From NCBI RefSeq assembly GCF_001027285.1, contig NZ_CP011509.1, positions 856,501-920,500 on the forward strand: 64,000 nt of DNA, read 5' to 3'. How positions within the stretch are numbered: the first letter of the stretch is position 1; every line of letters starts with the position of its first letter. The translations under genes and the position numbers were made by a program. This DNA is from Archangium gephyra (GTDB lineage Bacteria > Myxococcota > Myxococcia > Myxococcales > Myxococcaceae). Positions 15,087-42,706 of this stretch are shown here, one piece after another. Below the pieces are notes generated by a model. That model was not told the origin of the DNA and searched no databases. It saw nothing but the letters and a program-made list of their open reading frames with translations.

Positions 15087-15103
15087 CGGGCAATGCGCAG
15101 CCG

Positions 15104-15832
15104 ATGACCGACAACATGAAGGGCCTGCTGCTCGATGACCGCTGGGCGCCCATCACCTCGGAAATGGGATTTCTGGAGACCGGTGCGGAGCATGCTGCCC
15201 ATGCCTTCGCTGCATGGCAGGCGGGGTTGATGGCGCCCCGTGGCATCGCCGTGGACGTGCGCCCTGTTCCGGGCTCCCTGGAACAGGCTCTCTCCTCCCT
15301 GCTGCCCCTGACCAGTCCAGAGGCGCGGCGGGACCTCTTCATTCCGACACGAAGCTCCTGGACGGCGTACGTCGAAAACGGGTGGGGCGGGACCGATGCC
15401 GGGAGTGTCATGGCCAGCATGGCTCGGAGGCTGGGCTGCCGGGGCATGCGAGTGGTCGCGGTGCCCCACACCTTGCGCGGCGACAAGGGCCGCTATGGGG
15501 CCGTGATGTTCGAGCTGTACGGACCCCAGCAGACGCACTGGCTCAACTACCTGCGCACCCTTTACGTCTCCAACGATGGAGGCAAATGGGTCTTCGGCCA
15601 ATCCGGTGAGCCTTTGCCGTTCGAGGAGCTGGAGCGCTACCAGGCGCGCAAGGTGCGAGACCGCTTCACCTTCGAGATGCTCGAGGAGTACCTGCGCCAC
15701 CTGGGGCTGTCTCCCTTCCAGGAGGACTTCTACCTGCCCCAGGGCGCTCCCGCCTGGCTCGTGGAGAAGACGGGAACCTTCATCCCCGCCCAGAAGGAAT
15801 ACACCCTCGCCCAGGCTCAAGAGGATTTCTGA
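15104..15832 (+). CDS. Probable immunity protein, cassette 1
   Basis: A 242-residue soluble protein beginning 17 bases after the lipoprotein stop, hence co-transcribed. I do not recognise the family. Three paralogues in this window share DRWAP(I/V)TS near the N-terminus, FIPTR at about residue 80, LGCRGMRV, a WLNYLRTLY core, ERYQARKVRDRFT, and GLSPFQEDFYLP near the C-terminus. It has no signal peptide, as expected for an antidote that meets an imported nuclease in the cytoplasm. Position and one-to-one pairing with the lipoprotein genes suggest a SitI-like immunity role. Differences among the three are concentrated in the first ~70 residues and near residues 110-135, where specificity might lie. 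Confidence 0.65.
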   Translation: MTDNMKGLLLDDRWAPITSEMGFLETGAEHAAHAFAAWQAGLMAPRGIAVDVRPVPGSLEQALSSLLPLTSPEARRDLFIPTRSSWTAYVENGWGGTDAGSVMASMARRLGCRGMRVVAVPHTLRGDKGRYGAVMFELYGPQQTHWLNYLRTLYVSNDGGKWVFGQSGEPLPFEELERYQARKVRDRFTFEMLEEYLRHLGLSPFQEDFYLPQGAPAWLVEKTGTFIPAQKEYTLAQAQEDF

Positions 15833-17345: not shown

Positions 17346-18590
17346 GTGTCCCGGGTGCGACTCACGGCCGGGTGGCTGCATCGGTTGAGCGGGCTGGCGC
17401 TCCTGCTGTTTCTCACAGGCTGCGCCGCGCAGTCCCCGACGAGGGCCCCTCGGTGGTACGGGCAGCACACCGCTGGGAGCATGCCGGGGACGGCGGGTGC
17501 CGTCGAGGTTGACTTCGAGGCCGCCACGCCTCAACGCGCGGAGGTGCTGCGCCGTGGCGGCGTCCAACTGCCCCGGGTCTCCGAGCGGACCGCCGACCCA
17601 CGCACGCATCGGGACTTCGTCGAGCGGCGAGTCACGGCCGTGGGCTTCGGGCTGACCGAGGGCGGTTATCTCCTCTACTGCGAAGGGTTGCCGCTGCCGG
17701 TGCTCGTCCCGGAGTCCCAGGTGGACCTGGGAGTGACGAGCTCCGAGCCGCTCGGCGCCTTCCTCTACCCGGACCGGGACAGCGCCCTGGCGGAACTGGA
17801 GGCCAGGGGCACGGAGACAGGACACCGGAGGTATGCGTGGTACCGGGGAGTGGGGGGCGCGCTCATCGTGCCCACGCTCTTCTCACCGGCCACTACCCCA
17901 CGCATCGCCCGGACGATGCTCGAGGTGCGCGAGCACCTGGCGCGGACGACGCAGCGCGAGCTGAAGGTGCTGTTGTTGACGCTGACGGGTACGAAGGTGC
18001 TGCAAGGCGTCTTCTCCCGTGTGCTGAGGGTGGGCACGGAGCCGGAGCCCCGGCCACGGCCCCGGCAGGAGGGAGTGGGTGGCAGGGCCCCTGCATCGCA
18101 ACCCCCCGCGCCACAGGCCGGTCCACCCACTTCGGAACCTCTCCCCGCTCCAGCGGCACCCGCTCCGGTACCGAGTGCACCCGCGCCATCGCCGGGGCTG
18201 GTCCAGGCGCTCTCGGGCGGCAATCCAACGCCACGCGTGGCCCCTGCCCCACGTCTGCCTCAGGATGCGGCAGTCAAGCCCACGGTACCCGGGGTCAAGC
18301 CGCTCCAGCGGCCTGTTGGCTCCAGTTCCACCCAGAATGCGCAGGTGCAGGCGGACATCCAGTACCTACGGCAGATGGGCGCCACGAACATCCGGGTGAA
18401 TCAACAGCAGCTCACGTACAACAACGGCCAGCGCGTCGGAGTGAATCGGCCAGACCTGCAGTTCGACTATCGAGGCCGCCACTACCACGTGGAGTACGAT
18501 ACACCCATGTCGGGCCGTGGCCCTCGTCACCAGTCGCGCATCACCTCCAACGATCAGGACGCGACGGTCATCCTCCTGGTCGTTCCCTGA
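17346..18590 (+). CDS. SitA-like lipoprotein toxin, cassette 2
   Basis: A 414-residue paralogue of the cassette 1 lipoprotein, with the same LTGC lipobox, N-terminal region, Pro-rich linker and NRPDLQF/VEYDTP tail. A further 26 codons are open upstream but are not conserved, so GTG 17346 (or GTG 17355, the position shared with the third copy) is preferred. Relative to cassette 1, changes in the tail cluster around YNNGQRVGVNRP and YRGRHYHVEY. A 306-base segment (17667-17972) is identical to the third copy. The gene is followed after 17 bases by its immunity partner. Toxin activity and lipid-based transfer are inferred from architecture. Confidence 0.75.
   Translation: MSRVRLTAGWLHRLSGLALLLFLTGCAAQSPTRAPRWYGQHTAGSMPGTAGAVEVDFEAATPQRAEVLRRGGVQLPRVSERTADPRTHRDFVERRVTAVGFGLTEGGYLLYCEGLPLPVLVPESQVDLGVTSSEPLGAFLYPDRDSALAELEARGTETGHRRYAWYRGVGGALIVPTLFSPATTPRIARTMLEVREHLARTTQRELKVLLLTLTGTKVLQGVFSRVLRVGTEPEPRPRPRQEGVGGRAPASQPPAPQAGPPTSEPLPAPAAPAPVPSAPAPSPGLVQALSGGNPTPRVAPAPRLPQDAAVKPTVPGVKPLQRPVGSSSTQNAQVQADIQYLRQMGATNIRVNQQQLTYNNGQRVGVNRPDLQFDYRGRHYHVEYDTPMSGRGPRHQSRITSNDQDATVILLVVP
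17667..17972 (+). repeat. 306-base perfect repeat, copy A
   Basis: Identical base for base to 23470-23775 in the third lipoprotein gene, whereas the linker and 5' regions of the two genes have diverged. This suggests recent gene conversion or a recent duplication followed by diversification of the ends. Confidence 0.9.
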
Positions 18591-18607
18591 ATGAAGAGGC
18601 TCCGTGG

Positions 18608-19336
18608 ATGAGCGAAGAGTCGAGCAAACTGCTCCTGCAGGACCGCTGGGCGCCTGTCACTTCGGATATGGGCTTTCTGGAAGCAGATGCGGAGCGCGCT
18701 GCCCGTGCCTTCTCGTCATGGCAGGGCGGGCTGTTCGCGACAGATGGTGTCACCGTGGATGCACGCCCGGTGATGGGCTCCCTGGAGCAGGTTCTCTCCT
18801 CCCTGCTGCCCCTGTCCGATGGGGAGAAGCAGCGGCACCTCTTCATTCCGACACGCAGTGCCTGGACGGCCTATTTCGACAACGGCTATCGGGGAACCGA
18901 TGCCGTGAGCGCCATGTCCTATCTGGCCCAGGTATTGGGCTGCCGTGGCATGCGTGTGGGCGTGGTCCCCCATTCCCTCCAAAAGGACAAGGGGCGTTAC
19001 GGCGTCGTCGCGCTGGAGGTGTACGGCCCACGGCAGACGGAGTGGCTCAACTATCTGCGTACCCTCTATGCCATGAACGATGGGGGCCGCTGGGTCTTCG
19101 GCCAGACCGGTGAACCTTTCTCCTTCGAGAAGCTGGAGCGCTACCAGGCGCGCAAGGTGAGGGACCGCTTCACCTTCGACATGCTCGAAGAGTACCTGCG
19201 CCACCTGGGGCTCTCCCCCTTCCAGGAAGACTTCTACCTGCCCCAGGGCGCTCCCGCCTGGCTCGTGGAGAAGAGGGGAAATCTCTTCTCCGCCCCGCGG
19301 GAGTACACCCTCGCCCAGGCTCGCGAGGACTTCTGA
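18608..19336 (+). CDS. Probable immunity protein, cassette 2
   Basis: A 242-residue paralogue of the protein at 15104-15832 with the same length and landmarks (DRWAPVTSDMGFLEA, FIPTRSAWTAY, WLNYLRTLY, GLSPFQEDFYLP). It is the most divergent of the three in the middle, with MRVGVVPHSLQKDKGRYGVV where the other two have MRVVAVPHTLRGDKGRYGAV. This parallels the toxin in cassette 2, whose tail also differs most. Start ATG 18608. It ends 3 bases before the convergent secreted-protein gene. Confidence 0.65.
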   Translation: MSEESSKLLLQDRWAPVTSDMGFLEADAERAARAFSSWQGGLFATDGVTVDARPVMGSLEQVLSSLLPLSDGEKQRHLFIPTRSAWTAYFDNGYRGTDAVSAMSYLAQVLGCRGMRVGVVPHSLQKDKGRYGVVALEVYGPRQTEWLNYLRTLYAMNDGGRWVFGQTGEPFSFEKLERYQARKVRDRFTFDMLEEYLRHLGLSPFQEDFYLPQGAPAWLVEKRGNLFSAPREYTLAQAREDF

Positions 19337-23136: not shown

Positions 23137-24393
23137 GTGCGATTCACCACCGGGTGGCTCCATCGGCTGAGCAGGCTGGCGCTCCTGTTGTGGCTCACGG
23201 GATGCGCCGCGCAGTCCACCGTGAGGGCCCCGCGGTGGTACGGGCAGAGCGGTCCCGTCTCCGCTGGGGGCTTGCCGGGTACGGCACGCGCCGGGTCTCG
23301 GACCGTCGAGATTGACTTCGAGGCCGCCACGCCCCAACGGGCGGAGGAACTGCGCCGCAGCGGCGTCCAACTGCCTCGTGTCTCCGAGCGGACCGCCGAC
23401 CCACGCACGCATCGGGACTTCGTCGAGTGGCGAGTCACGGCCGTGGGCTTCGGGCTGACCGAGGGCGGCTATCTCCTCTACTGCGAAGGGTTGCCGCTGC
23501 CGGTGCTCGTCCCGGAGTCCCAGGTGGACCTGGGAGTGACGAGCTCCGAGCCGCTCGGCGCCTTCCTCTACCCGGACCGGGACAGCGCCCTGGCGGAACT
23601 GGAGGCCAGGGGCACGGAGACAGGACACCGGAGGTATGCGTGGTACCGGGGAGTGGGGGGCGCGCTCATCGTGCCCACGCTCTTCTCACCGGCCACTACC
23701 CCACGCATCGCCCGGACGATGCTCGAGGTGCGCGAGCACCTGGCGCGGACGACGCAGCGCGAGCTGAAGGTGCTGCTGTTGACGCTGACAGGCACGAAGG
23801 TGCTGCAGGGCGTCTTCTCCCGTGTGCTGAGGGTGGGCGCGGAGCCGGAACCCCGTCCGCTGCCCCGGAAGGAGCCACTCGGCAGCCAGACTCCAGCATC
23901 GCGTCCGTCCGCGCCACAATCCGCTCCAACCGTCCTTGAACCTGTCCCCGCCCCAGCGGCGCCCGTTCCGGTGCCGGGTTCAGCCGCTCCATCACCGGGG
24001 TTGGTCCAAGCGCTTTCGGGTGGCAATCCGACGCCACGCGTGGCCCCTGGCCCACGTCTGTCTCGAGATGTCGCGGTCGCGCCAACACCGCCTCGGGAAA
24101 TGGTGACGAACCGGCCTATCAGTTCCAGCCCTACCCAGAATGCCCAGGTCCAGGCGGATATCCGATATCTGCGGACCATGGGTGCCACGAACATCCGGGT
24201 GAATCAGCAACAACTCAAGTTGGGCAATCGCCCGCGTGTGGGAACCAATCGACCGGACCTGCAATTCGACTATAACGGCCGCCGCTACCAGGTGGAGTAC
24301 GACACGCCCGCATCGGGCCGAGGTCCCAGTCACCAATCGCGCATCACCTCCAACGACCCGGATGCGGAGATCATCCTCCTGATCGTGCCCTGA
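23137..24393 (+). CDS. SitA-like lipoprotein toxin, cassette 3
   Basis: A 418-residue third paralogue with lipobox LTGC, the conserved N-terminal region, a diverged Pro-rich linker and the NRPDLQF/VEYDTP tail. The GTG homologous to the first start of copies 1 and 2 is out of frame here because one base is missing, so GTG 23137 is the only shared start; this supports the shorter start in all three genes. Bases 23470-23775 are identical to copy 2. The tail differs from the others at LKLGNRPRVGTNRP and YQVEYDTPAS. The immunity gene follows after 17 bases. Toxin function is inferred. Confidence 0.75.
   Translation: MRFTTGWLHRLSRLALLLWLTGCAAQSTVRAPRWYGQSGPVSAGGLPGTARAGSRTVEIDFEAATPQRAEELRRSGVQLPRVSERTADPRTHRDFVEWRVTAVGFGLTEGGYLLYCEGLPLPVLVPESQVDLGVTSSEPLGAFLYPDRDSALAELEARGTETGHRRYAWYRGVGGALIVPTLFSPATTPRIARTMLEVREHLARTTQRELKVLLLTLTGTKVLQGVFSRVLRVGAEPEPRPLPRKEPLGSQTPASRPSAPQSAPTVLEPVPAPAAPVPVPGSAAPSPGLVQALSGGNPTPRVAPGPRLSRDVAVAPTPPREMVTNRPISSSPTQNAQVQADIRYLRTMGATNIRVNQQQLKLGNRPRVGTNRPDLQFDYNGRRYQVEYDTPASGRGPSHQSRITSNDPDAEIILLIVP
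23470..23775 (+). repeat. 306-base perfect repeat, copy B
   Basis: Identical to 17667-17972. The bases just outside it differ (first mismatch on the left at 23469), so the identity tract is sharply bounded, as expected for gene conversion. Confidence 0.9.
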
Positions 24394-24410
24394 CGAGCGA
24401 GGTTCACCGG

Positions 24411-25139
24411 ATGAGCGAGAACATGAAGGGCCTGCTCTTGGAGGACCGCTGGGCGCCCGTCACTTCGGAGCTGGGATTTCTGGAGACCGATGCGGAGCGC
24501 GCTGCCCGCGCATTCGCGGCGTGGCAGGGCGGGTTGCTGGCGCCCCGAGGCATCGCCGTGGGTGTATCTCCCATTTCAGGTACCTTGGAGCAGACCCTTT
24601 CCACCCTGCTGCCCCTGAACAATGCGGAGAGGCGCCGGCACCTCTTCATCCCAACGCGCAGTCCCTGGATGGCATACATCGACAATGGATGGCAGGGGAC
24701 CGATGCCGCGAGCGCCATGTCCTATATGGCTGAGACGCTGGGCTGCCGAGGCATGCGTGTGGTCGCGGTGCCCCACACCTTGCGCGGCGACAAGGGCCGT
24801 TATGGGGCCGTGATGTTCGAGCTGTACGGGCCCCAGCCAACGCACTGGCTCAACTACCTGCGCACTCTCTATGTCTCCAACGATGGAGGCCGCTGGGTGT
24901 TTGGCCAGTCCGGTGAGCCCTTTCCCTTCGAGAAGCTGGAGCGCTACCAGGCGCGCAAGGTGCGGGACCGCTTCACCCTGGACATGATGGAGGAGTACCT
25001 GCACCACCTGGGGCTGTCCCCGTTTCAGGAGGACTTCTACCTGCCCCCGGGCGCTCCCGCGTGGCTCGTGGAGAAGACAGGGCCCGTCGTCTCCGCGCAG
25101 AAGGACTATACCCTTGCTCAGGTTCGTGAGGATTTCTGA
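24411..25139 (+). CDS. Probable immunity protein, cassette 3
   Basis: A 242-residue paralogue of the immunity proteins at 15104 and 18608. It shares with cassette 1 the block from LGCRGMRVVAVPHTLRG through WLNYLRTLYVSNDGG almost unchanged, while its N-terminal third differs. Start ATG 24411. No signal peptide is visible. It ends the toxin/immunity island; the next gene begins about 100 bases later. Confidence 0.65.
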   Translation: MSENMKGLLLEDRWAPVTSELGFLETDAERAARAFAAWQGGLLAPRGIAVGVSPISGTLEQTLSTLLPLNNAERRRHLFIPTRSPWMAYIDNGWQGTDAASAMSYMAETLGCRGMRVVAVPHTLRGDKGRYGAVMFELYGPQPTHWLNYLRTLYVSNDGGRWVFGQSGEPFPFEKLERYQARKVRDRFTLDMMEEYLHHLGLSPFQEDFYLPPGAPAWLVEKTGPVVSAQKDYTLAQVREDF

Positions 25140-31290: not shown

Positions 31291-32670
31291 ATGCGGTCAC
31301 CCGAGAAGGGGCAGGAGCCCGGGACGGCAGCGGGCCGGATACGGGCGCGTTTGGACTGGTTGGTGCTCGGACTGGTGGTCGTCGCCCACGTGATGGCGGT
31401 GGTGTCCATCTGGGGCCAGTGGGAGCGCATCGGCATCATCACGGCCATGTTCGTGGGGGTGGCCTGCATCAACTTCGTCATCGCGCGGCGGTTTCCGGCC
31501 GAGCGGGCGAAGACGGCCGAGGCCCTGCGGATGACGTTCAACCTGCTCGTCTCCATGCCCATCTATGGCCACTTCACCGGCTGGGCGTTGCCGGTGTGGA
31601 TCCACCTGCCGCTCAACAGCCTCTGGGTGGGGGGGTTCATCGACACGCCGTCGCGGTTGCGCCTGCTGGTGTTGCTCTCGGCGGTGGTGGGCTTCGCGCT
31701 GTTCGACGGGTGTCCGCCGGTCCTGCCGCTCACCTTCTTCGTGCTGTCCGTGGCGCTCGCGGGCATCGCGGAGGCGCGCATCCACCTCAACCAGCTGACG
31801 ATGAAGGACCTGGAGGAGCGCAACCAGGAGCTGGCCAAGGCGCTGGCGGAGTTGGATCTGGCGCACCGGCGGGCCCGGGAGCAGGAGCGGCTGAGCAGCC
31901 TGGGCATGCTGGCCGCGGGCATCGCGCACGAGATCAACAACCCGATGAGCTACGTGAAGAGCAACATCCACACGCTCCATCTGGAGATGAAGGACCAGAA
32001 GGAGCTGCCCGGGCCGTTGCGCGAGTACGTGACGGAGGTGTTGCCGCAGACGCTGGATGGCATCAAGCGGGTGTGCTCCATCGTGGCGGACCTGAGGCGC
32101 TTCGCGCGAGGGGACCCCGAGGCGCTCATCGAGTACGACCTCAACGAGGAGGTGCGGGCGGCGCTGCGCATCACCCGGAGCCGGGTGTTGCCGGAGTGCG
32201 ACGTGGTCATCGAGCTGGGGGAGCTGCTGCCGATGCTCGGGCACCCGCGGCAGATTTCCCAGGTGGTGGTGAACCTGCTGCTCAACGCGGCGCAGGCGAT
32301 GAAGGGGCGGGGCACGGTGTACGTGTCCACGCGGCCGGACGGCGAGGACGACGTGGTGTTGACGGTGAGGGACACGGGGGTGGGGATGGCGCCGGAGGTG
32401 GTGGCCAACCTCTTCCAGCCCTTCTTCACGACGAGGCCGGCGGGAGAGGGGACGGGGCTGGGGCTGGCGGTGGTGCACGGCATCATCACGGCGCACGGCG
32501 GGCGCATCCGGGTGGAGAGCCAGCCGGGGGAGGGGAGCACCTTCACGGTGCGGCTGCCCCGGGTGCCGCCGATGAAGTTCATCGCCGCGCAGGAGGTGCC
32601 CGAGCAGCCGGGCGCCTCGACGATTCAGGTGTTCCAGGGGCCGCTCGCGCGCGGACAGCGGGAGGGCTAG
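31291..32670 (+). CDS. Membrane sensor histidine kinase
   Basis: A 459-residue kinase; ATG 31291 is preceded by GGAGGAGGT. Several membrane helices cover ~22-160, then a coiled coil (KDLEERNQELAKALAELDLA). The H-box GIAHEINNPMSYV has phosphorylatable His213; the N-box NLLLNAAQAM, G1 DTGVGMAPE and G2 GTGLGLAVVHG are intact. No sensory PAS or periplasmic loop is evident, so sensing is likely through the membrane helices. No response regulator is adjacent, which makes this an orphan kinase, common in myxobacteria. Confidence 0.9.
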   Translation: MRSPEKGQEPGTAAGRIRARLDWLVLGLVVVAHVMAVVSIWGQWERIGIITAMFVGVACINFVIARRFPAERAKTAEALRMTFNLLVSMPIYGHFTGWALPVWIHLPLNSLWVGGFIDTPSRLRLLVLLSAVVGFALFDGCPPVLPLTFFVLSVALAGIAEARIHLNQLTMKDLEERNQELAKALAELDLAHRRAREQERLSSLGMLAAGIAHEINNPMSYVKSNIHTLHLEMKDQKELPGPLREYVTEVLPQTLDGIKRVCSIVADLRRFARGDPEALIEYDLNEEVRAALRITRSRVLPECDVVIELGELLPMLGHPRQISQVVVNLLLNAAQAMKGRGTVYVSTRPDGEDDVVLTVRDTGVGMAPEVVANLFQPFFTTRPAGEGTGLGLAVVHGIITAHGGRIRVESQPGEGSTFTVRLPRVPPMKFIAAQEVPEQPGASTIQVFQGPLARGQREG

Positions 32671-33128
32671 GTGGGGAAGCCGGCCGCGTCCTCCGGAGAG
32701 GTGTAACGGGGAGGAGGGGCCGGGATGGGGCGGTGCTTCCAGCGGCGCGCGGCGGCCACGCCCCAGCCGGTGACGAGGAGGCCCTCGGCGACGGCGTCCA
32801 GCAGGTACACGGGCGAGATGCGCTGGGGCGAGTAGACGACGTCCACGGCGGCGAGCGAGGCGGCGCTGCCGGCGGCCAGGGACATGAGCTCGGGGTGGAC
32901 GCGGCGGCGCAGGCCGGCGGCGAGCAGGGTGCCGCCGACGACGGCGATGAGCGCGCCCACGGTCTTCACCAACCAGCCCTCGAGCTTGGGGCCCGTGATG
33001 GCCTCGAAGCTGCGCAGGTGGACGATGGGCCACAGGCCCGTGGCGAGATAGAAGACGCCCTGGGTGACGGCCAGTCCCGAGGCCAGGGGCCCGGTGTGCT
33101 CGGACTCGAGTTGCTCGACTGCCTCCAT
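32667..33128 (-). CDS. Small membrane protein
   Basis: A 153-residue protein; the ATG at 33128 has GGAGGAG just upstream. There are about four hydrophobic helices (GLAVTQGVFYLATGLWPIV, LVKTVGALIAVVGGTLLAAG, LAAGSAASLAAVDVVY, YLLDAVAEGLLVTGWGVAAA). It resembles uncharacterised small integral membrane proteins of proteobacteria; no function can be assigned. Its stop overlaps that of the convergent histidine kinase by 4 bases. Confidence 0.75.
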   Translation of the reverse strand: MEAVEQLESEHTGPLASGLAVTQGVFYLATGLWPIVHLRSFEAITGPKLEGWLVKTVGALIAVVGGTLLAAGLRRRVHPELMSLAAGSAASLAAVDVVYSPQRISPVYLLDAVAEGLLVTGWGVAAARRWKHRPIPAPPPRYTSPEDAAGFPT

Positions 33129-33425: not shown

Positions 33426-34148
33426 TCAGGAGGGAAGAAACGCCTCCACCGTGCGCAGGGCGGCCTCGAGGCTCGCGAGCCCCTCGCGCCGCACGGTGTC
33501 CACCGCCTCCCGGGCCCAGGCGACCACCTCGCGCCGTTCCTCCTCGGACATGCCATGGAACCTCGCGTCCCCCGAGCGGATGTCCTCGGCCACGTGCGCC
33601 GCCACGCCCAGGCTCCGCCCGACCTCCACCGCCCGTCCGGCCCGCGCTGTGCCCTCCCACAGCACCCGCAGGTAGAGCGCCCATTGCTGTCCGGCGATGC
33701 CCTCGGCCACCTGTTGGAAGCGCGGCGCCGTCCACGCCGCCGTGCGCACCTCGAGCACCTGCAGGCCCGCCGCCGTCACCATGTCCCCCGCGGCCTCGGC
33801 CAGCACCGGGGCCGGGAGCTCCGAGCGGGCCAGCGTGGTGAAGCACAGCGACTGCAAGGCGAATTGCACCCCGGGCCCCACCCGCTGGGGCTCCTCCAGG
33901 TACGAGCACTCGCCATCCGCCAGGTCATCCGCGAGGTTCGCCGCGCAGGAGCACAAGAAGAGCCCCGCCGCGCGCCGCAGCAGCACCTCGCGTCCGAGCC
34001 CCACCTCGGCCCCCACCGCGTACAGCAGCGCCAGGGGCCCGGGCCGGCCCGCTTCCATCGCCGCGAGCACCTGCCGCTCGGCCTCTTCCGGGAGGCCCTG
34101 CCGGCGCAGCGCGCGCAGGGCCTCCTGGAAGACGGCGCCCGCGCTCAT
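33426..34148 (-). CDS. Isoprenyl-diphosphate-synthase-like protein
   Basis: A 240-residue protein related to trans-isoprenyl diphosphate synthases but shorter than the ~300-350 residues usual for the family. The first aspartate-rich motif is present as LADDLADGE. In place of the second there is only AEDIRSGDARF, so catalysis is doubtful or altered. Size and degeneracy recall ComQ-type prenyl-modification proteins more than housekeeping synthases. It is the last gene of the five-gene unit and its ATG overlaps the histidine kinase stop (ATGA). A link between prenyl chemistry and the kinase is an inference. Confidence 0.7.
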   Translation of the reverse strand: MSAGAVFQEALRALRRQGLPEEAERQVLAAMEAGRPGPLALLYAVGAEVGLGREVLLRRAAGLFLCSCAANLADDLADGECSYLEEPQRVGPGVQFALQSLCFTTLARSELPAPVLAEAAGDMVTAAGLQVLEVRTAAWTAPRFQQVAEGIAGQQWALYLRVLWEGTARAGRAVEVGRSLGVAAHVAEDIRSGDARFHGMSEEERREVVAWAREAVDTVRREGLASLEAALRTVEAFLPS

Positions 34149-35497
34149 CTCAATTCCCGCGGGAGCAGGATGCGCAGCTGTGCCCCTCCGGTGGGCCGGT
34201 TGTGGCGCTCCAGCGTGCCGCCGCTCGCGCGGATGAGACACTCGGAGGTGTACAGGCCCAGCCCCGTGCCGTTCGGCTTGGTGGTGGACAACCCCTCGAT
34301 GGGGGCCTTCAGCTTCTCCGCGGGGAAGCCCGGCCCGTCATCGGCGATGAGCAGCTCCAGCCGCCCGCTGTACGGCTCGGAGCGCGCGAGGATGTCCACC
34401 TGCGCGGCGCCCTGCTGGCCATTGCCCTCGCACGCGTTGAGCACGAGGTTCTCCACCACCCGCCGCAGCGTGGTGGCGCCCCCGCGCAGCAGCGCGTGCG
34501 TGGCCTGGTCCTCCACCTTCACCTGGATGTCCACGTCCGGGAAGCGCCAGCCGAGGCTCGTGCGCACCGACTCCAGCACCGGCACCAGGTGCACGTTCTC
34601 CGGCTCGTGGCTCACCGAGCGCCGCCCCTTCTGGCGGATCTCGATGACCATCTCCCGGATGCGCGCCAGCCCCTCGTTGACCTCGCGCACCAGCTCCTCG
34701 AACTCGGCGCGCGGCAGGGCATTGCGCTGCACGCCCATGACCGAGAGCATGTCCGCCGCGGCGCTCACGCTCATCAACGTGTTGTTGATGTCGTGGTTGT
34801 AGCCAAGAATCTGCACCAGGGCCTGGGACAGACGGCCCACGTCGCGCTCCTGCTGCTCCAGCATCTGCGCCTGCACGGCGGCGCGCAGTTGCTCCGCCTC
34901 GGCGCGGGCCAGGTCGTGCCGCAGGGCGAAGCTGCCCGTGTACAGCTCGAGCATGATGGCCAGCGGCCCCATGACGGCGAAGAGGGCCCCGTGCTCCTCG
35001 CTGCGCGACAGCAGCGCCGCCAGCCCCAGCGCCACCGCCGAGCCCAGCGCGAGGAAGGGCTGCGTGGGCGCCACGCGGTGGAGGCGGCCGTGGTAGCCGG
35101 TGGTGAAGAGCAGCACCGCTCCGAACACCACGGCCCCCGGCATCTTCGCCAGGGCCATCAGCGCGGCCAGGTAGAACTGCAGGGCGGCCGTGCCCACCAC
35201 CAGGTACAGCCAGCCCCACCACTCCAGGCGCTGGCGGCCCCGGTGCAGCAGCGCGAAGACGATACCCAGCACCAGGCTCGGTGCCAGGCACGCCAGCGCC
35301 TCGAGGAAGGGCAGGTCGAAGAAACTCTTGGCGCCCGGAGCCCACACCGCGAGCGCCAGCACCGCCGGGATGACCAGGGCGGAGCTCAGCCACGCCTGCA
35401 ACGACGCGGCGGCCAGCACCTCCTGGGGGTCCTGCGAGCGCACCCAGCGCTTGAAGGAGTCGTGGACGAGCTGACGCCAGCGGGGCAGAGGGCTCAT
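34145..35497 (-). CDS. Membrane histidine kinase
   Basis: A 450-residue kinase with about six hydrophobic helices between ~30 and 190 and a coiled coil (~195-225). The H-box is of the HDxNN type (LGYNHDINNTLMS, His235); the N-box NLVLNACEGNG, G1 DDGPGFPAEK and G2 GTGLGLYTSE are intact. It overlaps its upstream neighbour (35494-35886) and its downstream neighbour (33426-34148) by 4 bases each. The only receiver in the operon lacks its phospho-acceptor, so the true partner is elsewhere or signalling does not use phosphotransfer to that receiver. Confidence 0.9.
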   Translation of the reverse strand: MSPLPRWRQLVHDSFKRWVRSQDPQEVLAAASLQAWLSSALVIPAVLALAVWAPGAKSFFDLPFLEALACLAPSLVLGIVFALLHRGRQRLEWWGWLYLVVGTAALQFYLAALMALAKMPGAVVFGAVLLFTTGYHGRLHRVAPTQPFLALGSAVALGLAALLSRSEEHGALFAVMGPLAIMLELYTGSFALRHDLARAEAEQLRAAVQAQMLEQQERDVGRLSQALVQILGYNHDINNTLMSVSAAADMLSVMGVQRNALPRAEFEELVREVNEGLARIREMVIEIRQKGRRSVSHEPENVHLVPVLESVRTSLGWRFPDVDIQVKVEDQATHALLRGGATTLRRVVENLVLNACEGNGQQGAAQVDILARSEPYSGRLELLIADDGPGFPAEKLKAPIEGLSTTKPNGTGLGLYTSECLIRASGGTLERHNRPTGGAQLRILLPRELR

Positions 35498-35886
35498 AAG
35501 GTCGCGGTCAGATAGAAGCCCGCCGCCTTGTTGATGGCGTTGGCTTCCCGGCCCACCTGTTCCACGCGGCGCTTGAGCTCATTGAAGATGTCCGGGTTGC
35601 CCCGGTGCACCACCTTCACCTCCACCGTGCCACCGGCCAGCACCTGGTGGATGGCCTCGAGGATGGGCATCACCTCGGGGCTGATCTCCAACGCGCCGTC
35701 GGGACCTTCCACGGCGCCGAGCTCTTGGATGCGCATCAAGTACTCGCTGAGCGAGGAAGCGACGTTCAATCCCACCACACGGGGCCCACGGATGTCGTTG
35801 TAGCTCATTGCGGCCTTGCCTCCGCCGGTCCAGGGGACCGGACTGTTGTCTGTTTGATTCGGGGGGTCGTGGGGGGGACTGTTCAT
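35494..35886 (-). CDS. Small operon protein of unknown function
   Basis: A 130-residue protein if started at ATG 35886, which overlaps the receiver stop by 4 bases as at every other junction in this operon; an internal ATG at 35808 would give 104 residues. The first ~26 residues are Pro/Asn-rich and probably unstructured. The rest contains NVASSLSEYLMRIQELGAVE, a central PILEAIHQVLAGGTVEVKVVHRG and a final helix (ELKRRVEQVGREANAINKAA). I do not recognise the family. Its place between receiver and kinase suggests an adaptor or sensor role. Confidence 0.7.
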   Translation of the reverse strand: MNSPPHDPPNQTDNSPVPWTGGGKAAMSYNDIRGPRVVGLNVASSLSEYLMRIQELGAVEGPDGALEISPEVMPILEAIHQVLAGGTVEVKVVHRGNPDIFNELKRRVEQVGREANAINKAAGFYLTATL

Positions 35887-36251
35887 GGGCGCGGGTGGCT
35901 CGGGCCGGGGGTGGACAGCAGGGCCTCCAGCTCGCGGCGGCCGAAGGGCTTGGCCTGGAACCATTGGAGACCGGGCTGCTCGATGAAGTCGGGAGGGCAG
36001 TGCGTGCCGGAGATGAGGACGCGGCGCGCGTGGGGCACGTGGGCCTCGGCCCAGCGCAGGAAGCCGGTGCCCGTCTCGCCCGCGTCCAGGTGCTGGGCGG
36101 CGAGGATGATGTCCACGGCCGGCTCCGTCTCGAGGGCGGCGCGGGCCTGGGCGGTGGAGGTGGGCCGGAGCACCTCGTGGCCGAGCACCCGCAGGGTGCG
36201 CTCCAGTCCCCGGGACACCCGGGCATCACAGTCCAGCACCAGCACCTTCAT
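35883..36251 (-). CDS. Pseudo-receiver domain protein
   Basis: A 122-residue stand-alone REC domain. The acidic pair (VLDCDA), the Ser of VLISG and the Lys of AKPFG are present. The strand that should end in the phospho-acceptor Asp reads VDIILAAQHLDAGE, placing Ala52 at the acceptor position. It therefore probably cannot be phosphorylated in the usual way and may act as a constitutive or ligand-gated interaction domain. It overlaps its neighbours on both sides by 4 bases. Confidence 0.82.
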   Translation of the reverse strand: MKVLVLDCDARVSRGLERTLRVLGHEVLRPTSTAQARAALETEPAVDIILAAQHLDAGETGTGFLRWAEAHVPHARRVLISGTHCPPDFIEQPGLQWFQAKPFGRRELEALLSTPGPSHPRP

Positions 36252-37129
36252 GGGGTGGCCTCCTGGCGGGAGGCAGGGGCGTGGAACCAGTCGTGTGGAG
36301 GCGCGAGGTAGAGGCCGCCGCTCACGGCCAGGGCGTAGCGGAGCAGGGCGTCCGGCGTCTGGCCGCCCACGCCCAGCAGCGCGTCCAGCGAGCGCTGGTA
36401 GTAGTCCGGATCCGCGGAAGCGGAGACGAAGGCCAGGCCCTCCTCGCCGCCGTGGCGGAAGGGGAAGCCGCGGCGGATGAGGAGCTGATTCTCCCCGGCA
36501 CCGGAGGCGCGAGCGCGGTGGATGTGGGCCTCGGCGGGCGCGTCCGTGACGAGCTCTCCGTCGCGGGTGCGGCCCACCACGCGCTCCTGGGCCTGGGGCT
36601 TGAGGCGGCCGAAGCGCTCCAGGTCCTTCTGGAAGCGCAGGTAGAGCAGCCAGGAAGCGCCGGCCAGGGCCCCCGAGGGCACGAGCGCGGCGCGACGCAC
36701 CTGCTCGCGGGTGGGGCGCAGCAGACCGTCGCGGAAGCCGAAGGCGTCACGGCCCTCGCCGATGCGGCCGCCGAGCACCTCCTCCTCGAGCGACAGCACC
36801 GCCTTGGAGTGGGCGAGCACCCGGCGCAGGGCCCACAGCAGCAGCTCGCGGCCCTCGGCGCTCACCTGGACGAGCACGTGGGACTGGGTGGAGGGGAAGC
36901 GCGCGGTGGGGCCCTGGCGGGGCAGCAGCGCGGAGGGAGCGGGAGCGCCGGGGAGCAGTGTGGGCTGCAGGCCGAGCACCGTGTGCAGGCCCTCGGTGGC
37001 GCTCAGCTCGGCGTAGAGGGTGGACAGCACGTCCCGCAGCTGGGAGAGCGCCACGTTGCGGCTGAGCCGGAGAACGGCGACGGCACTGAACGCTCCAGGC
37101 GAATGAAAGAGCCCTTCCTGTGGCCGCAT
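36248..37129 (-). CDS. DyP-type heme peroxidase
   Basis: A 293-residue dye-decolorising peroxidase. The family signature GFRDG (catalytic Asp of G-x-x-D-G) lies near residue 130. The HIHRARASG segment carries the proximal heme His, and LLIRRGFPF the distal Arg region, followed by GEEGLAFVSASADP. There is no Tat or Sec signal, so it is cytoplasmic or an encapsulin cargo type. ATG 37129 is chosen over a GTG 24 bases upstream. It is the first gene of a five-gene operon (36248 down to 33426), which ties peroxide or heme chemistry to the following signalling genes. Confidence 0.85.
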   Translation of the reverse strand: MRPQEGLFHSPGAFSAVAVLRLSRNVALSQLRDVLSTLYAELSATEGLHTVLGLQPTLLPGAPAPSALLPRQGPTARFPSTQSHVLVQVSAEGRELLLWALRRVLAHSKAVLSLEEEVLGGRIGEGRDAFGFRDGLLRPTREQVRRAALVPSGALAGASWLLYLRFQKDLERFGRLKPQAQERVVGRTRDGELVTDAPAEAHIHRARASGAGENQLLIRRGFPFRHGGEEGLAFVSASADPDYYQRSLDALLGVGGQTPDALLRYALAVSGGLYLAPPHDWFHAPASRQEATP

Positions 37130-38091: not shown

Positions 38092-38994
38092 ATGGCGAAT
38101 CCCAGGCAGGTGAGCGAGCACGAGGCGCAAGGCGAGGTGGAGCGGGTCCTCCATGAGATGCGGCAGACGCTGCGGGTGACGGGGCTGGACGTGACGGTGC
38201 GCACGTGGGCGGGCTTCGAGCGCTTCCTGGTGGCGATGTGGGAGGCGATGGGGCCGAACACGGAGACGCGTGCCTTCGAGGCGGCGGCGGACGAGGTGCG
38301 GGCGCAGGCGGTGGAGGCCGCCGAGCGTCTGGGTCGGCTGGGCGCGTGGGAGGCGGCGGTGCTGGGAGACAGCCAGCGCTACCACGTGCGAGGGGCGCTG
38401 GAGCTGTACCACTACCTCAACCCGAAGATGCTGGTGTTCACCTCGGCGGTGAAGCTGGCCCTGCAGGACGAGCACGTGGGGGCGCTGCAGCCGCTAGGGA
38501 GCGCGGAGCGGGTGGAGCGGGGGGCTCCGGCGCGGATGATGGCGATGGAGGCCGTGGACGAGCGGCCGGACGACGCGCGGCTGCGGGGACTCTTCAAGGA
38601 CATCCAGGAGACGGTGGGACCGCCCGCGTTGCCGGGAGAGTTCCGGGGGCTGGCGCTGTGGCCCGGGTACCTGGAAGCCGCGTGGGAGCGGCTGAAGCCG
38701 AGGATGAGGACGGAGGAGTGGGCCCGCGCCTGTGACACGCTGCTGGAGACGTCGAGGCGGCTGGCGAGGCGTCTTCCCTACGAGGTGGCGCTGTCGAAGG
38801 AGCGGCTGGAGGTGCTGCGCGAGGACGCGGAGCTCATCCAGCGGGTGACGGTGCAGAGCGAGTGGCGGCTGCCGGTGCTGGTGCTCGGGATGGCGACGCT
38901 GGTGGGCGACGTGGGAGACCTCGAGCGGCGGTTGCCCTTCCCGGCGGAGGCGCGCCTGGTGCCGGACTTCGTGGTGGCGGAGGAGCTGCGATGA
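38092..38994 (+). CDS. DehI-like halocarboxylic acid dehalogenase family protein
   Basis: A 300-residue all-helical protein built of two similar halves, as in DehI 2-haloacid dehalogenases. These enzymes hydrolyse the C-halogen bond by direct water attack. Recognisable parts are residues VRTWAGFERFLVAMWEAM, ALELYHYLNPKMLV and LPGEFRGLALWPGYLEAAW. ATG 38092 has GGAGGAGG upstream. The stop overlaps the next gene (ATGA), which encodes a haloalkane-dehalogenase-like hydrolase, so the pair probably acts on one substrate. I recognise the family but cannot confirm the catalytic Asp. Confidence 0.78.
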   Translation: MANPRQVSEHEAQGEVERVLHEMRQTLRVTGLDVTVRTWAGFERFLVAMWEAMGPNTETRAFEAAADEVRAQAVEAAERLGRLGAWEAAVLGDSQRYHVRGALELYHYLNPKMLVFTSAVKLALQDEHVGALQPLGSAERVERGAPARMMAMEAVDERPDDARLRGLFKDIQETVGPPALPGEFRGLALWPGYLEAAWERLKPRMRTEEWARACDTLLETSRRLARRLPYEVALSKERLEVLREDAELIQRVTVQSEWRLPVLVLGMATLVGDVGDLERRLPFPAEARLVPDFVVAEELR

Positions 38995-39863
38995 ACTGGC
39001 GCGAGTACCAGGCGGGACAGCGGGTGGTGGAGCTGGGCCACCGTTTCATCAGCTACGTGGACGAGGGGCGGGGCGCTCCGCTGGTGCTGCTGCATGGGAT
39101 TCCCACATGGGGCTTCCTGTGGAGCGGGCTGCTGCCGGCGCTGTCCATGACGCACCGGGTGCTGATTCCGGACCTGCTGGGGTACGGGTACTCGGACAGG
39201 CGCGAGGGCTTCGACCGGTCCATCGCGCGGCAGGCCGAGGCGCTGGATGCGTGGATGGACCGGCTGGGCGTGCGGGACGCGGTGGTGGTGGGGCACGACA
39301 TCGGCGGAGGCATCGCGCAGCACCTGGCCATCCGCTTCCCGCGGCGCGTGTCACGGCTGTGCCTGATGAACAGCATCTGCTTCGACTCGTGGCCCATCGA
39401 GATGATGGTGCAGCTGGGACACCCGGGGGTGGTGCGGCGGCTGTCGGCGCAGGCGCTGCAGCGGATGTTGAAGCTGGCGCTGAAGCGGACGGGCTTCGCG
39501 ACGGCTCCGCCGGACGGAGTGTTGGACGGGCTGCTGGCGCCCTACGCGACGGAGGTGGGGAAGACGTCCCTGGTGCGCGACGCGGCGGCGCTGGACACCA
39601 ACCAGACGCAGGAGTTGGTGCCGAGGCTGCCGCACCTGGGCGTGCCCACGCGAATCATCTGGGGCGTGGAGGACACCTTCCAGCCGGTGAAGTGGGGCGA
39701 GCGGCTGGCGTGGGCGATTCCGGGCGCGAAGCTCGTGCGGGTGGAGCATGCCCGGCACTTCGTCATGTGGGACGATCCGCACGCGGTGATGACGGCGCTC
39801 TACGCGTTCCTCGGGGTGGAGGAGCGGCCCCAACTGGAGGGCCTTCAGGGTTCATCGATCTGA
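38991..39863 (+). CDS. Alpha/beta hydrolase, haloalkane-dehalogenase-like
   Basis: A 290-residue hydrolase. The oxyanion segment is LLHGIPTWGFLW, and the nucleophile elbow GHDIGGG carries Asp103, not Ser, as in haloalkane dehalogenases and epoxide hydrolases. An acid in WGVEDTFQP and the catalytic His in VEHARHFVMW complete the triad. It is coupled to the DehI-like gene by a 4-base overlap, and its 3' end overlaps the convergent gene by 19 bases. Trp next to the nucleophile, typical of true haloalkane dehalogenases (HDW), is replaced by Ile, so an epoxide or ester substrate is also possible. Confidence 0.82.
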   Translation: MNWREYQAGQRVVELGHRFISYVDEGRGAPLVLLHGIPTWGFLWSGLLPALSMTHRVLIPDLLGYGYSDRREGFDRSIARQAEALDAWMDRLGVRDAVVVGHDIGGGIAQHLAIRFPRRVSRLCLMNSICFDSWPIEMMVQLGHPGVVRRLSAQALQRMLKLALKRTGFATAPPDGVLDGLLAPYATEVGKTSLVRDAAALDTNQTQELVPRLPHLGVPTRIIWGVEDTFQPVKWGERLAWAIPGAKLVRVEHARHFVMWDDPHAVMTALYAFLGVEERPQLEGLQGSSI

Positions 39864-42706
39864 GCGAAGCTGGCCGCATCCAGCCAATGGAGCTTGCCGC
39901 AGCCTTCGGGGACGAGGGGGAGGTGGAGCGTCTTTCCCTCGCGTCGCACCGTGATGCGCACGTCCTGGCTGATGCCGCTGAGCATCTCGAACAGGTGCTT
40001 GTGGTCGCGAAGGGGCTTGCCCCCCACGGCGATGATCCAATCGCCAATCACGAACTCCCGGCAGGAAATCCCGAGGCAGCGGGTCACGATGGCGCCGCCC
40101 GTGGCCTGCCCGCCACGCCAGCCGCTCAGCCCGGCCAGGGCCAGCGCGAGATTGGACCGGACCTTCCGGGTATTCGAGTGGTCCTCACCGAGGCTCTGCT
40201 CGGCGATGGCGAGTGCCCGGCGCAGATACCCCGCCGCGCCCACGCCATCACCTCCCTGGGCCAGGACCGTACCGATGTTGTTCAGCACGAAGAGGAGGTC
40301 CGGGTGGTTGCGGCCGCGGAACTTCTCATGGAGGGCGAGGGCCCGCTGCTGCAGGGCCAGGCCTCGCGCGCGCTCCCCCTGGTCCACCAGCAGACCGGCC
40401 AGGTTGGCCAGCAGATAGGGGACCTGGGGATTCTCGGGTCCGAGCGCTTTCTCGGAGATGGAGATCGCCCGCTCGTAATGGGCCAGGGCTTCCTCGCGAT
40501 GGCCTTGTCTGTAATGCATCAGCCCGAGGTTGTTCAGCGCGATGGCGACATCGGGATGCGCCCGTCCAAGCGCCCTCTCGGCGAGGAGCAACGCTTGTTG
40601 GAAATGCGCCTGGGCTTCCGGGTACTGGCCCTGCTCGTCGAGCACGTGGCCGAGGTTGTTGAGGATGACGCCGCGGGTATTGGGGTTGCCCCCGCCCGGT
40701 GCCTTGTCGGCGATGGCGAGTGCCCGCCGGTGATACGCCAGGGCCGCTTCCAACTCGCCCTGGGCGCTGAGTGCCGTGCCGAGGTTGTTCAGGGGGCGGA
40801 TGGCCTCGAGGTGCTCCGGGCCGTAGGTCTTCTCGACGAGCTCGAGCCCTTGTTGGAAGGCGGTGCGGGCCGCCGTGTAGTCGCCCTGGGCCATGAGCAC
40901 GTGGCCCACGCTGCTCAGGTAGGTGACGAGCGCCGGGTGGTTCTCTCCGAGCCGCCTGCGCATGAGGGCGAGCGCCTGCCACTGATGCTCCAAGGCTCCC
41001 GCGAGGTCTCCCTGCTCCATGAGGGCATTGCCGATCAGCGATAGGCTCGTGACCTCCTGCGGGCTCCCGCTGCCTCGCACCCGCGCCAGGGCCTGCCGGC
41101 TGTAGCGCAGCGAGCGCTCGAGGTCCGGCAGGTAGAGGTAGGCCCTCGCGAGCACCAGCTCGAGCGACTCCACGTTGCGCTCCTGCTCCAGCACGTGCTC
41201 GGCGGATTTCTCGAAGAAGCGCGCCGCCAGGGCGTACTGCTCCTGCTCATGGAAGTGCAGCCCCAGCGCGAACTGGATGAGCTGGAAGGGCTCGGTGGCG
41301 CGCAGGGCGGGGAGATCCAGGTGCCCCAGGCTGGGCAGCTCCAGGGCGCGTTTGCTGCTGCGGCGGAAGCTGCGCTCCGCGCTGTACAGCGTTGCCCGGG
41401 GTTGCACCGTGTAGGGAGTGGAGGCCGGGCCGTTGAAGGCCTTGCCCCAGAGGATGACGTTCGCGCCGAGGGCCTGGGCCACGCGCTCGGCCCGCTCGTG
41501 GGTGTCCAGCGTGCAGCTCAGGCGGTGGAGCTCCAACGAGCCCTCGGGCACCTCGAGGTCCACCTCCTTCGGGTTGCGCAGCTCCTCCTCCTGGAAGCGC
41601 TCGAGGGCCTGGGCCACCTGCTCCGACACGGTCCGCGAGAAGTCCGGCTGCTGGGGCGAGGAGCCCTGGAAGCCGGCCACCAGCAGGTGCGTGGCCCCGG
41701 GATTCTTGAAGGGGCTCGGGCCGAGGTCCTCGCCGCACAGGCCCTCGGCCCCGGACCAGGGGCTCCAGGCGAGCACGCCGGCTCCCGCCGCCAGGGCGAG
41801 CACCGCCAGCCCCGCGGCCACGGGGGCCTTCCGGGGTGGACGTGGCAGCTCGAGCCCCTGCTCCAGGAAGTCCGCGAGGACGATCGCCGCCGTGCGCGAG
41901 GCGTACTCGTGGAAGTGGTCGTCCTTGAGCTCATCGCCGAAGTCGGAGATGCCCCGGATGACCAGCCAGGGGATGCCGTTGCGCTCGCAGGCCGCCATGA
42001 GGCCGGCCGCCTCCATCTCGCCCACCTCGGTCCTGCCGTCCAGCGAGCGGATCTCCAACAACTTGCCCGGGTCGCGCAGCAGCTTCTCGCCACTGGCGAT
42101 CGTCGCCGCCTTCACGGTCATCCGCGAGGCGACGTGCTCGCTGAAGAGCTTCTCGCGTCCCTCGGACGGCCGGGGGACGCTCCAGCCGCGCGCCTGGAAG
42201 CGCGTGTCGAGGCGCTGCGCCTCCGGCCGGTAGTGCACCACGTTCTGGTGCATGCCATGAGACGTCGTCCGGATCTCCGGGCGTGGCTCCGTGCGGCTGC
42301 CGCCCTCGGGGGTGCGCACGAGGGCGGCGGACTCGTAGGCCACCACGCGCTCGGAGAGGACGACTTCACCGATGCGGACCTTGCCGCGGATTCCCGCCGC
42401 GATGCCCACGAGCAGCACGGCCCGGGGGGCGTAGCGGGAGATGACCTCCTGCACCGCGGCGGCGGAGTTGTTGTTGCCCGCCCTGCCGATGCACGTGAGC
42501 AGCACCTCGTGGTCACGCCCCGCGAGCGTGGAGTGGACCGGGCCCCGGTAGGAGATGGTGCCTGTCTCATCCGTCTCGCGTGCGGCCGCTACCTCGGAGA
42601 GGCCCAGCGCCTGACGGACGGCGTAGAGCTCGGGAGGGATGACCGTCAGGATGGCGATGTCGACGGGAGGGCGGGCGAACCGTCGGAGGAGTCGAGGCCA
42701 GGCCAT
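39845..42706 (-). CDS. Nucleoside phosphorylase-TPR-PDZ fusion protein
   Basis: A 953-residue multidomain protein. Residues ~15-285 are a nucleoside phosphorylase/MTA-SAH nucleosidase-type domain (AILTVIPPELYAV, LLVGIAAGIRGKVRIGEVV, VGEMEAAGLMAAC, IRGISDFGDE). A single membrane helix follows at ~295-312 (AAGLAVLALAAGAGVLA). A ~140-residue region comes next, then about eight TPRs (~455-870; repeats such as NNLGLMHYRQGHREEALAHY) and a PDZ-like end (EFVIGDWIIAVGGKPLRDH). Fusion of this enzyme domain to TPRs is known from NLR-like and conflict-system proteins; membrane anchoring plus PDZ is unusual. The role is unknown. It could sense or deplete nucleosides in response to partner binding. Confidence 0.85.
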   Translation of the reverse strand: MAWPRLLRRFARPPVDIAILTVIPPELYAVRQALGLSEVAAARETDETGTISYRGPVHSTLAGRDHEVLLTCIGRAGNNNSAAAVQEVISRYAPRAVLLVGIAAGIRGKVRIGEVVLSERVVAYESAALVRTPEGGSRTEPRPEIRTTSHGMHQNVVHYRPEAQRLDTRFQARGWSVPRPSEGREKLFSEHVASRMTVKAATIASGEKLLRDPGKLLEIRSLDGRTEVGEMEAAGLMAACERNGIPWLVIRGISDFGDELKDDHFHEYASRTAAIVLADFLEQGLELPRPPRKAPVAAGLAVLALAAGAGVLAWSPWSGAEGLCGEDLGPSPFKNPGATHLLVAGFQGSSPQQPDFSRTVSEQVAQALERFQEEELRNPKEVDLEVPEGSLELHRLSCTLDTHERAERVAQALGANVILWGKAFNGPASTPYTVQPRATLYSAERSFRRSSKRALELPSLGHLDLPALRATEPFQLIQFALGLHFHEQEQYALAARFFEKSAEHVLEQERNVESLELVLARAYLYLPDLERSLRYSRQALARVRGSGSPQEVTSLSLIGNALMEQGDLAGALEHQWQALALMRRRLGENHPALVTYLSSVGHVLMAQGDYTAARTAFQQGLELVEKTYGPEHLEAIRPLNNLGTALSAQGELEAALAYHRRALAIADKAPGGGNPNTRGVILNNLGHVLDEQGQYPEAQAHFQQALLLAERALGRAHPDVAIALNNLGLMHYRQGHREEALAHYERAISISEKALGPENPQVPYLLANLAGLLVDQGERARGLALQQRALALHEKFRGRNHPDLLFVLNNIGTVLAQGGDGVGAAGYLRRALAIAEQSLGEDHSNTRKVRSNLALALAGLSGWRGGQATGGAIVTRCLGISCREFVIGDWIIAVGGKPLRDHKHLFEMLSGISQDVRITVRREGKTLHLPLVPEGCGKLHWLDAASFAQIDEP

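Follow-up and report, generated by a model that had tools for sequence, protein, structure and literature searches.

A conserved myxobacterial module in Archangium gephyra comprising an isoprenyl-diphosphate-synthase-fold protein, a membrane histidine kinase and an orphan small protein

ComQ is the synthase-fold enzyme of the Bacillus ComQXPA system. Its first aspartate-rich motif is intact, whereas the second retains only its second Asp; this pseudo motif begins with Asn or Gly (PMC5331326). In Trp prenyltransferases resembling trans-isoprenyl diphosphate synthases, a Gln lies just upstream of the second motif (PMC13290415). A census made in 2014 found no ComQXPA system outside the Firmicutes (PMC4008528). 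Methyltransferase–terpene synthase pairs are a known logic for making homoterpenes (PMC12929941, PMC12723460). We analysed a five-gene locus at positions 33426–37129 of a 64,000-nucleotide stretch of Archangium gephyra DNA. This stretch, hereafter the window, spans positions 856501–920500 of a 12.5-Mb genome in a single contig. The genes are all on the minus strand, reading from 37129 to 33426. In order, they encode a DyP-type peroxidase, a pseudo-receiver, an orphan small protein, a membrane histidine kinase and a synthase-fold protein. The last three form a conserved module. Since most relatives add a methyltransferase for isoprenoid building blocks, the probable role of the module, judged from sequence, is to make or sense a modified isoprenoid.

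We focused on a sample of 195 Myxococcota genomes. Gene 5 was found in 50 of these, and genes were called around it in each. Below, P0002 to P0005 denote genes 2 to 5, L-numbers denote loci and G-numbers denote genomes. P0003 is present as a single copy in 46 of the 195 genomes, and all 46 are among the 50 with P0005. The four P0005 genomes lacking P0003 comprise two of one genus that have lost both P0003 and the kinase, one whose P0003 carries an internal deletion and one in which the contig ends. The order gene 3, gene 4, gene 5 is retained nearly everywhere. Chance clustering was rejected; co-occurrence of P0003 and P0005 gives a Fisher p of 2e-40 (195 genomes), a value overstated since phylogeny is ignored, and gene order and overlaps are also retained across genera. 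The conserved core is genes 3, 4 and 5. The DyP gene adjoins the module in 13 of about 50 loci and the pseudo-receiver gene does so only in the seven Archangium-type loci. These two genes are lineage extras, peripheral to the module. A preliminary description of the locus had treated all five genes as one system, with the gene order in other myxobacteria as its test. The order of genes 3, 4 and 5 is shared, so the arrangement is not unique to this strain. However, the five-gene set is not the conserved unit, and the methyltransferase that usually accompanies the core is missing here.

Few loci depart from this pattern. L016 has P0003, P0005 and the methyltransferase but no kinase; among 395 genomes of the phylum to which the L016 genome belongs, only that genome and one marginal partial match were found. 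L080 and L081, from one genus, form a decay series. Here, P0005 lacks its DDxxD motif, the DyP is degenerate, the kinase and P0003 are absent and the methyltransferase is present. Separately, the record holding L013 is titled Comamonas sp. KCTC 72670. It contains this myxobacterial locus with Myxococcus-like neighbours and is probably mislabelled.

Gene 5 (33426..34148, minus strand) encodes a 240-residue protein conserved in 50 genomes, and its closest relatives by sequence are from Archangium. No Pfam model scored above chance for 34 members of the family, and PF00348 was not detected. The AlphaFold2 model has a predicted local distance difference test score (pLDDT) of 94.3. It aligns with the trans-isoprenyl diphosphate synthase 4wk5 over 232 of 240 residues (Z 24.5, root-mean-square deviation 2.5), and Foldseek matches it to trans-isoprenyl diphosphate synthases with E 1e-5. 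The modelled fold confidently identifies gene 5 as a relative of isoprenyl diphosphate synthases. Canonical synthases encoded in the same genome gave a profile alignment with a weak score (E 0.015) but consistent motif placement, which puts the first aspartate-rich motif at D74-D75-L-A-D78 (33915..33929, minus strand). This DDxxD is intact in every locus having a kinase gene and is lost only in L080 and L081, where the kinase and P0003 are also lost. At the second aspartate-rich motif, EDIRS replaces DDxxD (E188-D189-I-R-S192; 33573..33587, minus strand) and only the second Asp is invariant. D189 and R196 are unchanged down to the most distant relatives. The GK(x)RP, RRG and KT motifs, which serve isopentenyl diphosphate (IPP) binding and elongation, are missing. 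From these motifs, P0005 is predicted to bind an allylic diphosphate and ionise it, with no condensation of IPP.

Gene 4 (34145..35497, minus strand) encodes a 450-residue histidine kinase with about six predicted N-terminal membrane helices, an HDINN H-box and complete N and G boxes. The protein is multi-pass without an obvious extracytoplasmic domain. HATPase_c matched with E 3.6e-16 and the HisKA score fell below the Pfam cut-off. The predicted phospho-acceptor, His235 (codon 34793..34795, minus strand), and the ATP-binding N and G boxes are all present in the window. In 13 of 48 loci the His is replaced by Gln, Glu or Asn, and some of these 13 kinases also lack N- or G-box residues. On the P0005 tree this amounts to about three inferred losses, all in methyltransferase-bearing lineages, and every lineage concerned retains the P0005 DDxxD. 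Therefore, P0005 chemistry does not require phosphotransfer, yet P0005 travels with the kinase and P0003. The window encodes a second membrane histidine kinase (31363-32670, plus strand), convergent with the module across a gene for 153 residues (32667-33128). Its HisKA and HATPase scores are normal, in contrast to those of gene 4.

Gene 3 (35494..35808, minus strand) encodes an orphan protein of 104 residues. Residues G31, H54, G59, G60 and L78 are invariant; conservation is central, with no C-terminal core. None of the 46 P0003 sequences has a conserved Trp or Cys, or a Trp near the C terminus. Searches of Pfam, PDB sequences and folds found no match for gene 3, the model being of moderate confidence (pLDDT 77). 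A relationship between P0003 and P0005 was considered and none was found. The preliminary description called the gene 3 product an unknown protein, in agreement with these results, but gave it 130 residues. An ATGA does occur at 35883-35886, where genes 2 and 3 would overlap. However, the start conserved in the family is ATG 35808, with GGAGG, a probable ribosome-binding site, at 35819-35823 (minus strand). The 26-codon extension back to 35886 is free of stops in only two of seven Archangium-type loci. Hence, 35808 is the most likely start of gene 3. The gap to gene 2 is then 74 nt, and the upstream ATGA is probably unused as a start.

The other three junctions are 4-nt ATGA overlaps, at 36248-36251 (genes 1 and 2), 35494-35497 (genes 3 and 4) and 34145-34148 (genes 4 and 5). 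The start of gene 1, ATG 37129, is backed by a conserved N terminus among relatives. Thus, five co-directional genes were correctly recognised, though not an overlap in use at every junction. Such overlaps are ordinary in the window, where gene calls place them at 7 of 30 co-directional neighbour pairs. They are informative only because they are conserved across loci: 36 of 45 for genes 3 and 4, 43 of 44 for genes 4 and 5, and 31 of 38 for gene 5 and the methyltransferase gene. In the relatives, genes were called by a home-made codon-usage script and some starts may be off. Fixed stoichiometry, as first proposed, does not follow from the overlaps, which suggest translational coupling instead. 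A scan for sigma-70 promoters and terminators found no promoter-like site and one weak minus-strand hairpin, within gene 5.

In 38 loci, a methyltransferase gene directly follows P0005. Its profile matches C6-FPP-MT (9tb4) with E 7.5e-75 and BezA, the C6-methyltransferase of geranyl diphosphate (GPP; 7fbh), with E 1.3e-69; the next family is far weaker. In C6-FPP-MT, a catalytic Glu165 and a Phe243-Trp244 pair have been described (PMC12929941). Their equivalents are invariant in the module methyltransferases. Tyr occupies the position of BezA Tyr47, Cys replaces His194, and the size-gate position is Phe (Trp210 in BezA, Ile205 in C6-FPP-MT). By sequence, the enzyme belongs to the C6-prenyl-diphosphate family of BezA and C6-FPP-MT. 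L073 and L082, from two genomes, encode P0005 fused to the methyltransferase as a single protein of 522-523 residues. The six Archangium genomes lack an ortholog, two of them giving just weak generic matches, and a search for a copy relocated elsewhere in the Archangium genome found none. The distribution on the P0005 tree requires two changes, most plausibly a single gain and, in the Archangium clade, a single loss. In L080 and L081, the methyltransferase gene adjoins one for a flavin adenine dinucleotide (FAD) monooxygenase.

Gene 2 (35883..36251, minus strand) encodes a receiver alone, of 122 residues, with no DNA-binding domain. Its receiver score is below the Pfam cut-off. The acceptor Asp is Ala in all seven Archangium-type copies while the Lys and Ser are retained. 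Among distant relatives, L085 (genome G146) and L086 (G138) have genes for a receiver, a P0003-like protein, a membrane kinase and a P0005-like protein, with no methyltransferase at the locus. The order in L085 (receiver, small protein, kinase, enzyme) is that of the window. The L085 and L086 receivers, also without a further domain, keep their Asp and the kinases keep their His. This points to a functional two-component module, associated with a synthase-fold protein, as the ancestral state. Orthology of P0002 to these two receivers was not supported; other receivers of the same genomes match better.

Gene 1 (36248..37129, minus strand) encodes 293 residues with a DyP C-terminal domain (E 1.1e-22). 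Alignment with 5de0 places a retained GxxDG, proximal His and distal Arg, and the peroxidase is apparently intact. Full-motif DyP proteins occur in Archangium and in the L073 cluster, while five loci (L056, L060, L061, L080, L081) have lost heme and catalytic residues. The preliminary assignments of gene 1 as a DyP heme peroxidase, gene 2 as a receiver without acceptor, gene 4 as an HDxNN membrane kinase and gene 5 as a degenerate, ComQ-like isoprenyl diphosphate synthase agree with the features described above.

Other parts of the window were also noted. Divergent from the module, 38092-39863 (plus strand) holds a DehI-type dehalogenase-like gene (PF10778) with a 4-nt overlap with an alpha/beta-hydrolase gene. 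The pair also adjoins the module in many relatives (L009-L012, L051, L052, L056, L068-L079). The gene at 39845-42706 (minus strand) has an unusual domain combination: a nucleoside-phosphorylase-like domain, then many TPR repeats, and a weak PDZ match. A sequence of about 0.9 kb occurs in three diverged direct copies (14500-15424, 18004-18928 and 23807-24731), which share 76-84% identity. Short open reading frames in these copies share GVNRPDLQFDYNGRRYHVEYDT-like ends and gave no match in a Pfam search. The copies are possibly repeated cassettes of a polymorphic system.

Our best explanation of the fold, motifs, co-inheritance, fusion and losses proposes a catalysis, a substrate, a product and a role for kinase sensing. 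The locus would be the Archangium form of a myxobacterial module of three co-inherited proteins, built around a prenyl-diphosphate-processing enzyme with its own sensor or control pair. Gene 5 would bind, and probably ionise, GPP or farnesyl diphosphate (FPP) without IPP condensation. It might then rearrange or hydrolyse the prenyl diphosphate, or transfer the prenyl group. The gene 4 kinase and gene 3, a putative small soluble partner, would be the dedicated sensor or control pair of gene 5. Most simply, the signal for this pair would be the lipophilic product or the supply of prenyl diphosphate. Most Myxococcaceae gained a C6-prenyl-diphosphate methyltransferase, in some cases fused to gene 5, which makes a methylated prenyl diphosphate (C11 or C16) the probable substrate there. 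The lasting output in these lineages would be a molecule, not phosphotransfer, because kinase chemistry was lost repeatedly while the enzyme motif was retained. In Archangium the methyltransferase has been lost and the sensing side remains, with an intact kinase; its pseudo-receiver, lacking a phosphorylatable Asp, is perhaps an adaptor or brake. We hold this account tentatively, at somewhat less than an even chance. A bolder form of it is improbable: Gram-negative isoprenoid signalling independent of ComQXPA, in which the enzyme makes or attaches an often C6-methylated prenyl signal, its own kinase perceives this signal and the small protein is acceptor or carrier.

Several observations weigh against the favoured account. 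Obligatory phospho-signalling fits poorly with the 13 of 48 loci in which the acceptor His is gone. Position alone links P0002 to the receivers of L085 and L086, and they are not mutual best matches. For gene 5, with its weak sequence match to canonical synthases, homology rests on the model. Finally, the degenerate second motif means that P0005 could be a binding protein and not an enzyme.

Among social bacteria, the myxobacteria are the classic example; for several of the signals that they use in development or release as volatiles, the chemistry is undefined. A conserved single-copy module that joins a C6-prenyl methyltransferase and a sensor kinase to a prenyl-diphosphate enzyme would be a deletable candidate for isoprenoid signalling in the genetically tractable Myxococcus. 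It would also put C6-methylated prenyl diphosphates, described in Streptomyces natural-product pathways, into a regulatory setting. The module is, in addition, an example of a kinase repeatedly losing its phospho-acceptor while the enzyme partner is kept.

Other explanations share parts of this evidence. In a homoterpene cluster, P0005 would be a terpene cyclase or diphosphate lyase turning C6-methylated GPP or FPP into a volatile or pigment, with the kinase-like protein and P0003 as local regulators or a membrane scaffold and no signalling. The C6-methyltransferase partner, its fusion with P0005, the precedent of methyltransferase–terpene synthase pairs (PMC12929941, PMC12723460) and the retention of the Asp motif where the acceptor His has gone all point this way. 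Yet Archangium and the L085 and L086 loci keep the kinase and P0003 without a methyltransferase, which is unexpected for a purely biosynthetic cluster; we consider this explanation rather unlikely. P0005 could instead be a non-catalytic sensor that binds prenyl diphosphate and relays its occupancy via P0003 to the kinase, reporting isoprenoid supply. Strict coupling to the kinase and P0003, the degenerate second Asp motif and the lost IPP site are consistent with this. However, full retention of the first Asp motif (the metal and diphosphate site) argues otherwise and the methyltransferase fusion better fits a catalytic handover, leaving such a sensor unlikely. The preliminary description had suggested a redox- or lipid-sensing signalling unit. 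A lipid-linked unit is plausible, gene 5 being tied to the kinase and small protein. The redox part drew only on the DyP; most relatives lack this protein or have a degenerate copy. Although an apparently active-type DyP heads the Archangium operon and the L073 cluster has a full-motif copy, a redox-sensing unit centred on a gene that adjoins the module in just 13 of about 50 loci, five loci having lost its key residues, is extremely unlikely.

In a true ComQXPA-type pheromone system, gene 5 would prenylate gene 3, which would be processed, exported and sensed by gene 4. The overlapping genes and the four-part architecture (enzyme, small protein, membrane kinase, receiver) are the same, and gene 5 follows the ComQ pattern of a kept first motif and a kept second Asp of the second (PMC5331326). 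Against this, gene 3 is conserved centrally and not C-terminally, and lacks a conserved Trp or Cys; hence, P0003 was rejected as a ComX-like peptide, and the idea that the ComQ-like protein modifies a partner peptide in the ComX manner finds no support. In nearly all relatives, His185 stands where Gln precedes the second motif of the Trp prenyltransferases (PMC13290415), the sole Gln being in L085. Glu188, likewise present in nearly all, replaces the Asn or Gly of ComQ. The receiver has no DNA-binding domain. Hence, a pheromone system of this type is very unlikely.

Compared with FPP and geranylgeranyl diphosphate (GGPP) synthases, gene 5 shares the fold over its whole length and the first Asp-rich motif. 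It differs in having lost the IPP-binding Lys/Arg motifs and the second Asp-rich motif, and in the negative PF00348 result. Gene 1 resembles DyP-type peroxidases in its C-terminal domain with GxxDG, proximal His and distal Arg; unlike them, its N-terminal half is short and no encapsulin gene was recognised adjacent. In pathways with C6-prenyl-diphosphate methyltransferases (BezA; C6-FPP-MT with a terpene synthase, yielding the Streptomyces homoterpenes kantenol and marxdiol), the methyltransferase is of the module's family by sequence and catalytic residues. However, its partner in the module, a small protein with the synthase fold, comes from a different family and is accompanied by a kinase and P0003, and the window has no methyltransferase. 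The methyltransferase family is already known. Our searches of the open-access literature found no description of this operon or gene combination. Like ComQXPA, the module sets a synthase-fold enzyme beside a multi-pass membrane kinase and a gene for a small protein; some forms also have a receiver, and the genes overlap. Unlike ComQXPA, it occurs in Myxococcota with a methyltransferase partner, its kinase is HisKA-like and not HisKA_3, and its small protein has no Trp substrate site, which in ComX lies in the last 5-10 residues. By these sequence features, the module resembles ComQXPA in layout and would be analogous to that system, not a member of it.

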